A stretch of DNA of 43,313 bases, taken from IMG/VR virus record IMGVR_UViG_3300028073_000018, positions 1 to 43,313 of that record; one strand, 5' to 3'. The position numbers were made by a program, and so were the translations under genes. The stretch is from a virus. Positions 8,279-38,432 of the stretch are shown piece after piece. Below the pieces are notes generated by a model. That model was not told the origin of the DNA. It was given only the letters and a program-made list of their open reading frames with translations, and made no database searches. How positions within the stretch are numbered: the stretch's first letter is position 1; every line of letters begins with the position of its first letter.

Positions 8279-9181
8279 ATGAAATCAAAGTATAGTATTT
8301 TTCATGTTCAAGGTGGCATTGGTAAGCACATTGCAGCAACTGCAGTAGCAAAAGCAATTAAAGCAAACCATCCAGATAGAAAACTAGTTGTAGTCTGTGC
8401 ATATGCGGATATTTTTATAAATCTTCCGTATGTTCATAGAGTTTATACTCTAGGATCGACGCAATATTTTTATCAAGAATATATTCAAGATAAAGATTCT
8501 ATTTTATTCCATAATGAACCATATTATACAACTAACCATATTCACAAACGCAAACGTTTAATCGAGAATTGGTGTGATTTGTATGGCATCAAATATTCTG
8601 GAGAAAAACCAGAAATAAGATTTAATAAACTTCAACATAGTATATCAAAGGAATTTTGGCAGAGAGAAAAACCAGTCATGATTATCCACACTAATGGTGG
8701 ACTCATGACTGCCGATGCAAAACCATATTCCTGGACAAGAGATATGCCATTTGATCTCGCAGAAAGACTTGCGGATTATTACAAATCAGAATATCATATT
8801 ATTCAACTTACAAAAATTAATTCTCCAAAGTTAGAGGGTGCAGAACATATTTTTGCAACACCAGAAAACTCATTAAGTTTAATGGAGTATTTTAGTATTG
8901 TCCTCCATGCAAAAAAAAGAATCTTAATTGATTCCTGTGTGCAACATGCATCTGCTGCCCTAAATAAATCATCGACAGTTTTGTGGAATGGGACTAGTCC
9001 AAAAGTATTTGGATATGATATTCACCACAATATCTGCACAACAGTACCATATGATTTTAAATTGCCAGGAAGTTATCTTTTTGATTTTGATTTTAATGGT
9101 AATGAAGTTGAGTATCCCTACGAAGAAGGGATAGAACTATTCGATTTCCATGAAATTGTTAAATCCGTTGATGCTCAGTAA
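8279..9181 (+). CDS. GT-B (GT9, heptosyltransferase-like) glycosyltransferase
   Basis: 300 residues. The opening FHVQGGIGKHIAATAVAKAI resembles the N-terminal Gly-rich loop of heptosyltransferase-like (GT9) enzymes, and residues ~220-245, IDSCVQHASAALNKSSTVLW, match the family's C-terminal donor-site block (usual form DSGPMHLAAALG). The C terminus (YPYEEGIELFDFHEI) looks like a phage-specific tail. It sits 48 bases downstream of the fusion enzyme and 9 bases upstream of a sulfotransferase, so it belongs to the same decoration cassette. The nucleotide sugar is not predictable. It may act on virion glycans or on host LPS; the first is favoured by proximity to fibre genes. Confidence 0.78.
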   Translation: MKSKYSIFHVQGGIGKHIAATAVAKAIKANHPDRKLVVVCAYADIFINLPYVHRVYTLGSTQYFYQEYIQDKDSILFHNEPYYTTNHIHKRKRLIENWCDLYGIKYSGEKPEIRFNKLQHSISKEFWQREKPVMIIHTNGGLMTADAKPYSWTRDMPFDLAERLADYYKSEYHIIQLTKINSPKLEGAEHIFATPENSLSLMEYFSIVLHAKKRILIDSCVQHASAALNKSSTVLWNGTSPKVFGYDIHHNICTTVPYDFKLPGSYLFDFDFNGNEVEYPYEEGIELFDFHEIVKSVDAQ

Positions 9182-33488: not shown

Positions 33489-33559
33489 GCCCGATAAGCA
33501 TTGTGGTGATGCAGCAGTTTAGTAAACTGCAGAGAACAGTTCAATTCTGTTATTGGGCT
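33489..33559 (+). tRNA. tRNA-Thr(AGT), unusual A34 anticodon
   Basis: Acceptor GCCCGAT/ATTGGGC, anticodon stem GCAGT/ACTGC, loop TTAGTAA giving AGT. A34 is rare in bacterial tRNAs outside Arg(ACG). A second Thr tRNA (TGT) is at 36910. Confidence 0.8.
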
Positions 33560-33562
33560 CTC

Positions 33563-38006: not shown

Positions 38007-38035
38007 TTTACAAAAATCAAATACTTTGCTACTAT
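38007..38035 (+). promoter_or_regulatory. Sigma70 promoter of the tmRNA gene
   Basis: TTTACA (38007-38012), 17 bases, TACTAT (38030-38035). Predicted start near 38041, where the acceptor part of the tmRNA begins. Confidence 0.72.
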
Positions 38036-38040
38036 ATAAA

Positions 38041-38262
38041 GTGTTCAAGAGGATAAACCTCTATATTCCAACACATCGGGGCAGTACCGATTACCTCCAC
38101 TACATGGGGGTAAAATAGAATCGACTGGGATGTACGTATTATCTGTTGACGGGACAAAAAACAAACGCAAACAACATTGTTGCATTCACTCGTCAGACCG
38201 CATTGGTTTGACCTTAAATGAGTGAGGGGGTTATAAGTTTCCTTCTAATCCAAAACTTACAT
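38041..38262 (+). ncRNA. ssrA: Circularly permuted tmRNA (ssrA) with tag ANNIVAFTRQTALV
   Basis: The 3' tRNA-like half comes first: T-stem ATCGG/CCGAT (38075-38079, 38087-38091) then acceptor strand TACCTCC (38092-38098) and A. After only seven bases the 5' half begins: GGGGGTA (38106-38112) pairs with TACCTCC including the G3-U70 wobble for alanine, followed by AATCGACTGGGATG, the conserved tmRNA 5' motif. The tag frame starts at GCA 38167 and reads ANNIVAFTRQTALV to TGA 38211. ANNIV is the usual start of cyanobacterial tags, and cyanobacteria of this group have two-piece tmRNA. The T-loop (GGCAGTA) is not canonical. A terminator follows. tmRNA rescues stalled ribosomes and tags products for proteolysis. 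Confidence 0.83.
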
Positions 38263-38282
38263 AGGGGTGCAATGCCCCTTTT
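38263..38282 (+). terminator. Rho-independent terminator after the tmRNA
   Basis: AGGGG, TGCAATG, CCCCT followed by TTT. Preceded by a TAAGTTT/AAACTTA stem that belongs to the coding RNA. Confidence 0.72.
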
Positions 38283-38432
38283 AATGTATAGATACGGTTA
38301 ATTACTATTACTAAAATTATTCATTATAAAGATTTGAAAATTTGTCTTTTTATGAATTTTTAATCCATTTATATAATGAATCAGAGAATATGGATCTAAT
38401 GAACTTTTTGAAAGAGGATATAAAAGATTAAA
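38283..38432 (+). other. Gene-free AT-rich gap
   Basis: No credible reading frame. A TATAAT (38372-38377) with a weak TTTATG 17 bases upstream may serve the oxygenase gene at 38433. Confidence 0.4.

Follow-up and report, generated by a model that had tools for sequence, protein, structure and literature searches.

The closest described counterparts of the RNA discussed here are the two-piece tmRNAs of cyanobacteria (Rfam RF01851) and of alphaproteobacteria (RF01849). Two-piece tmRNAs have also been published from marine phages, among them methylophage Melnitz (PMC9004378), and 79 phage sequences are catalogued in the tmRNA database (PMC11915505). The Melnitz tmRNA, like ours, is of the two-piece type and sits on a marine phage, but it is closest to alphaproteobacterial ones and is tied to a glutamine riboswitch. 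The portions of that report on marine-phage tmRNAs describe neither mosaics nor divergence of the tag end. A permuted tmRNA in a marine phage is already known; the points of interest here are a mosaic core and a rewriting of the degron that extends across cyanophages.

The window, by which we mean the whole 43,313-base IMG/VR viral contig that was analyzed, is assigned by sequence kinship to a T4-like Synechococcus phage (Kyanoviridae). Among named records, it comes closest to T4-like Synechococcus phages (S-PM2, S-CREM1, S-SRM01, and others), with each match covering at most 3% of the query. Permuted tmRNAs were found in the isolates S-CAM1, S-CAM3, S-CRM01, Sf-FS3, S-SSM7, and S-CBWM1, as well as in AG-345-P14, and the same search returned none in S-PM2, S-CREM1, S-SRM01, S-T4, RB11-B, DSL-LC02, or S-SCSM1. 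When the window tmRNA was used as the blast query against named phages, S-CAM1 alone was matched, over 23% of the query. The S-CAM1 tmRNA (HQ634177.1, unannotated) is likewise permuted, comes from a T4-like Synechococcus phage, has a 6-nt inter-half stretch, and shares the same tag start. It differs in its canonical T-loop (UUCGAUU) and in a tag that ends STVAA. GenBank hypothetical proteins overlie unannotated permuted tmRNA genes at 404-622 of L453 (S-SSM7) and 359-499 of L456 (S-CAM3), and these are probably misannotations.

A sequence-only reading of the window had proposed that it encodes a permuted tmRNA, and covariance-model searches confirm this. In a cmscan of the whole window, the cyanobacterial model (RF01851, cyano_tmRNA) matches 38026-38278 with 72.4 bits (cut-off 70, E 1.4e-17, full model 1-288), and the permuted model (RF04321, tmRNA_permuted) matches 38049-38205 with 52.4 bits (cut-off 47, E 1.5e-7, model 1-213). 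Both matches exceed their gathering scores, and both halves of the molecule are covered. An acceptor/D pattern matches once in the window and not at all in 100 shuffles. The fold z-score is -3.5, which is the one result of MFE folding used as evidence, and MFE folding of the precursor did not recover P2. ARAGORN lists 20 tRNAs in the window, and the tmRNA is absent from its output. A tRNA-Ala gene neighbors the tmRNA, and in parsing cores the shortest inter-half stretch was taken.

All features of the gene lie on the plus strand. Just upstream is a sigma-70-like promoter sequence (38007-38035; TTTACA-17-TACTAT, with TG before the -10 hexamer) that agrees at 9 of 12 positions, although such a match is weak alone because the count in the region is not above that in shuffles. 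S-CAM3 carries TTGACA upstream of a TAATAT hexamer in the same place. The 3′ part of the tmRNA is encoded first (38041-38098) and comprises a 5′ extension, the P2 5′ strands (38051-38056 and 38062-38069), the T-arm AUCGG-GGCAGUA-CCGAU (38075-38091, with the alpha-type T-loop at 38080-38086), and the acceptor 3′ strand UACCUCC (38092-38098). The seven-nucleotide inter-half stretch ACUACAU (38099-38105) consists of discriminator A73 and six intervening nucleotides, with CCA not encoded. The acceptor 5′ strand GGGGGUA (38106-38112) then leads into the D region AAAUAGAAUCGACUGGG, the two together spanning 38106-38129, and here an alpha-type 'AG' replaces 'GG'. The motif TCGACTGGG occupies 38121-38129, and the P2 3′ strands GGGAUGUA and UUAUCU (38127-38144) pair with 38062-38069 and 38051-38056, respectively. 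Several particulars noted earlier from the letters alone stand as described: the permuted order, which is read directly from the sequence as an acceptor 3′ strand seven bases ahead of the 5′ strand; the 7-bp acceptor stem GGGGGUA/UACCUCC, which keeps G3-U70 with A73 next; the TCGAC motif; and the tag frame, which starts with an alanine resume codon and reads ANNIVAFTRQTALV followed by a UGA stop (38167-38211). That frame is kept in relatives. Farther downstream are a tag-end hairpin (38193-38211, UCAGACC-GCAUU-GGUUUGA), a putative pseudoknot stem formed by UAAGUUU (38234-38240) and AAACUUA (38253-38259), and a terminator-like hairpin AGGGGTGCAATGCCCCT with a T run (hairpin at 38263-38279, 38263-38282 with the T run; one found versus 0.3 expected).

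Among 11 distinct relatives, 97.7% of the cells for the proposed pairs are paired, compared to 28-50% in slid controls. Changes on both sides of a pair number 10 cells versus 1.9 in shuffles, and they are confined to two base pairs, namely one acceptor pair and the innermost pair of the tag-end hairpin. The T-stem and T-loop are unchanged across the 11 sequences, and the putative pseudoknot stem is paired in all 11 but is nearly invariant and so offers little covariation. The final valine codon together with the stop codon makes up one arm of the tag-end hairpin. Therefore, RNA pairing may partly shape the end of the tag. Taken by its sequence, the window tmRNA is probably a working gene.

The T-loop of this RNA, GGCAGUA, conforms neither to UUCRANY nor to the canonical cyano_tmRNA form UUCGAYU. 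The sequence-only reading was correct that the loop departs from the canonical one, but it is not a mere oddity, as it is the standard alphaproteobacterial type accompanied by the matching D region. The Rfam alpha consensus has GGCgGUA and then the D region AAAuAGGAUCGA; the window carries the alpha-type pair of traits (T-loop GGCRGUA with D region AAAuAGgAUCGA). Therefore, the molecule is a mosaic in which an alpha-type tRNA-like core is set in a cyanobacterial-type tmRNA. With the cyanobacterial RNAs it shares gene order, the ANNIV tag start, the tag-end hairpin, the 3′ pseudoknot, and a short inter-half loop that lacks CCA, and it differs from them in its T-loop/D region and in a tag that ends ALV rather than APVAA. 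With the alphaproteobacterial RNAs it shares the T-loop GGCRGUA, the D region AAAUAGxAUCGA, and the acceptor stem, whereas its tag, P2, and 3′ domain are of the cyanobacterial type and CCA is not encoded. Decay of the T-loop was considered and rejected, since this loop is the Rfam consensus for the alpha type and recurs in many phage tmRNAs of that type.

Scores for separate segments divide along the same line. For the tRNA-like fragment 38062-38136, alpha_tmRNA is the top-scoring family of the tmRNA clan (33.8 bits, E 4.9e-9), and for the fragment holding the tag and 3′ region (38131-38300) cyano_tmRNA is the only tmRNA family that gives a score (32.9 bits, E 6.6e-8). Given its T-loop, the RNA belongs to cyano_tmRNA in the mRNA-like part only. 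The whole alpha_tmRNA model (RF01849) reaches 37 bits on the window, below its cut-off of 50, and aligns with the core segment only. Rfam classes L166 as an alpha-type tmRNA (112 bits), and its tag is ADENLALAA. Its core is identical to the window's at 42 of 44 positions, the highest count for a canonical core being 30. In a leave-one-out position score, all seven mosaic cores group with the alpha class (42-58 bits), against a cyanobacterial mean of -53. Viral and genome contigs gave 89 distinct permuted cores, with the D position left free in the phage scans and constrained in the host scan. In this set, UUCGA-type T-loops occur with 'GG' in 50 of 50 cases and GGCRGUA with 'AG' in 37 of 37. 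SmpB binding is reported to require T-loop/D-loop contacts (PMC3968760). As a natural experiment, swapped cores would bear on both the tRNA elbow and SmpB recognition.

From these mosaics, it seems that the tRNA-like core moves as one unit, T-loop and D region together. A direct comparison is that between L443 and L211, which carry the identical tag ANKIVAFSRTSVPSLV. Starting at the first base beyond the cassette, 205 of 207 downstream positions are shared, and the two are near-identical for about 45 nt upstream of it, but only 19 of 44 positions agree within the T-arm/acceptor/D cassette. The core of L211 is canonical, and that of L443 has GGCAGUA with 'AG'. Furthermore, L157 combines the core of the window with a tag (LNNIVSFRRTAVAV) similar to those of the canonical-core sequences L116 and L213. 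Given this cassette difference and this mixture of core and tag, the core has switched partners, and probably on more than one occasion. A canonical-core near-relative of the window family was not found, and the case for a swap in the window itself therefore rests on similarity and on the analogy with L443 and L211. Two observations on these sequences can be added here. Rfam identifies an abiF RNA and a group I intron at 6356-6623 of L443, less than 1 kb upstream of its mosaic tmRNA, and L157 holds at 8286-8606 a shortened tmRNA-like sequence, below Rfam cut-offs, that may be a reduced or broken form.

For the window, we consider recombination with an alpha-type phage tmRNA the most likely source of the T-arm, acceptor, and D region. 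Transfer of one whole block from a donor resembling L166 can be accepted only in part, because the inter-half stretch of L166 is 29 nt long with ACCA and that of the window is 7 nt, of the cyanophage kind, and without CCA; this mismatch would call for later loss of the loop or for another donor. The same cyanophage-like stretch, along with the lack of a canonical near-twin, leaves room for an origin in place, the T-loop and D region having mutated in concert. The same T-loop also occurs with A18-G19 in unrelated phage tRNAs, and thus the elbow may be reachable repeatedly. We nevertheless judge this route improbable, since the identity with L166 includes D positions outside the contact and since L443 and L211 differ in one sharp cassette.

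The phage tRNAs just mentioned form a set of 33 distinct cloverleaf tRNA genes in viral contigs, part of it fetched by a pattern including AAAAGT, that have the T-loop GGCAGUA and A18-G19 in place of G18-G19. All 10 of those fetched by other patterns have A-G at the D-loop position. Most of the 33 are glycine tRNAs, and His, Lys, Pro, Gln, Val, Cys, and Met are also represented. Examples, among others, are found in L123 (4332-4401), L124 (5479-5548), L126 (239-308), L131 (5282-5352), L138 (11404-11473), L154 (951-1097 and 2376-2446), L159 (1617-1686), and L169 (2449-2518), the last being a close relative of the window. GGCAGTA yields 32 cloverleaves in 678 occurrences, compared to 1 in 18,376 for 60 permuted loops. 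ARAGORN detects none of the 33, so it is blind both to the window tmRNA and to the phage tRNAs that share its elbow, and none of these tRNAs reached the Rfam tRNA cut-off in the 12 contigs to which its models were applied. They may represent an alternative-elbow class that has gone unnoticed.

The stretch between the two halves proved to be ordinary. It had been described as far shorter than in host genes, but it spans 7-20 nt in picocyanobacterial hosts (about 20 at most), with some hosts also having 7 nt (e.g., L282, L283, and L358), and mostly 5-10 nt in cyanophages. A special shortness of this loop is thus rejected. Because short loops are common in cyanophages and also present in hosts, there is likewise no special ground for the suggestion that the RNA stays in one piece.

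The tag presents a different picture. The 61 picocyanobacterial loci yield nine distinct tags, every one ending APVAA, whereas just six of the 42 distinct cyano-type tags from 117 phage loci end AA (Fisher's test P 1.6e-6, with relatedness ignored). Only C-termini were counted, since the starts of S-CAM1-like tags are ambiguous owing to an in-frame GCA upstream. Other cyanophage ends are TA, LV, TV, AV, SV, and a few more, and the final residue is A, V, or L in all 42. Positions 2, 5, and 9 (N, V, and R) are invariant, and I4 and F7 are each present in 41 of 42. Changed ends also occur in isolates with named hosts (Sf-FS3, ELATA; S-SSM7, ELVTA). Of the 24 alpha-type phage tags that these scans yielded, 20 end AA, and the remaining four seem to have been parsed wrongly. 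The window tag ends ALV, not VAA, and the cyanobacterial-type start with an altered end noted by the sequence-only reading turns out to be a family-wide trend rather than a single oddity: cyanophages diverge at the tag end and keep the start ANNIVxFxR, and hosts never change the end. In eight near-identical relatives (L060, L069, L133, L144, L146, L156, L164, and L167), the first codon of the tag VNNIVAFSRQTVSV is GTA (valine) instead of GCA.

On why phages carry tmRNA, the sequence here yields a sharp, testable prediction. Cyanophage tags depart from host tags chiefly in the degron rather than in the start, so the phages may need ribosome rescue but not the destruction of the products. The earlier suggestion of rescue without destroying products is too strong, given that all ends are A, V, or L and that V-ended degrons still act in Synechocystis, where, according to PMC3446811 (citing Huang 2010), strength declines in the order LVA > AAV > ASV and weakened variants retain activity. 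By analogy with this ranking, many cyanophage ends resemble the weak AAV and ASV degrons, and tags ending ALV, VSV, VAV, or ATV look weakened, not dead. The handling of the ALV tag by cyanobacterial proteases would follow these other variants, and with ALV in place of the host PVAA, tagged proteins would probably be degraded more slowly than host-tagged ones.

Two other interpretations of the tag deserve comment. Non-polar C-termini suit recognition of the ClpXP or Tsp/Prc type. Ends restricted to A, V, or L are compatible with this, and another host protease with such a preference might handle the phage tag as well as PVAA, leaving the end free to vary. We regard a tag that is redirected or neutral, and not weakened, as somewhat unlikely, because hosts never leave APVAA, alpha-type phages mostly keep AA, and V-ended variants are the weaker degrons in Synechocystis (PMC3446811). 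Far less credible is that the gene is a decaying remnant in which the odd T-loop and the changed tag are signs of lost function. Its modest Rfam score, its absence from the ARAGORN output, the phage-to-phage variation in tag ends, the shortened form in L157, and the GTA codon in eight related contigs might be expected of a remnant. Against this, the T-arm, acceptor, P2, tag frame, tag-end hairpin, and pseudoknot are all kept in 11 distinct relatives with compensatory changes, the D region and T-loop change together, and tag ends remain restricted.

A search for SmpB genes was negative in the window and in 19 related records, several of which are fragments, and positive in 10 of 14 control genomes. 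Therefore, the host would have to supply SmpB. This dependence is also what would be expected if the phage RNA mainly titrated host SmpB and thereby blocked host trans-translation, for which the tmRNA of mycobacteriophage DS6A, reduced to a tRNA-like domain, is a precedent (PMC4131195, PMC11915505). A pure competitor would not need the full tag frame, stop codon, and 3′ pseudoknot that are kept, nor does it fit well with a nearly invariant ANNIVxFxR start, and we find this role quite improbable.

Our preferred reading, which we hold with reasonable though far from full confidence, is that the window carries an intact permuted tmRNA gene with an alpha-type core gained by recombination, serving host-dependent ribosome rescue with a weakened degron. 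The gene is framed by promoter-like and terminator-like sequences of its own, and its transcript would fold into a two-part tRNA-like domain. Host tRNA enzymes would probably cut this transcript, the host would add CCA, and host AlaRS would charge the RNA with alanine through G3-U70. Together with host SmpB, the RNA would then free ribosomes stalled on broken mRNA during infection. More tentatively, cyanophages might possess a trans-translation of their own, in which cyanobacterial and alphaproteobacterial cores are interchanged as a cassette and the degron is systematically rewritten for rescue with slow degradation, with the same elbow (GGCAGUA, A18-G19) marking an overlooked class of phage tRNAs.

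Other genes of the window merit brief mention. A tRNA-Thr at 33489-33560 has the anticodon AGT, and A34 is unusual among bacterial threonine tRNAs. A ferritin/Dps-like protein (PF00210, 34027-34446) and a Mom-like DNA modification protein (PF25680, 37197-37796) are encoded near the tRNA and tmRNA genes.
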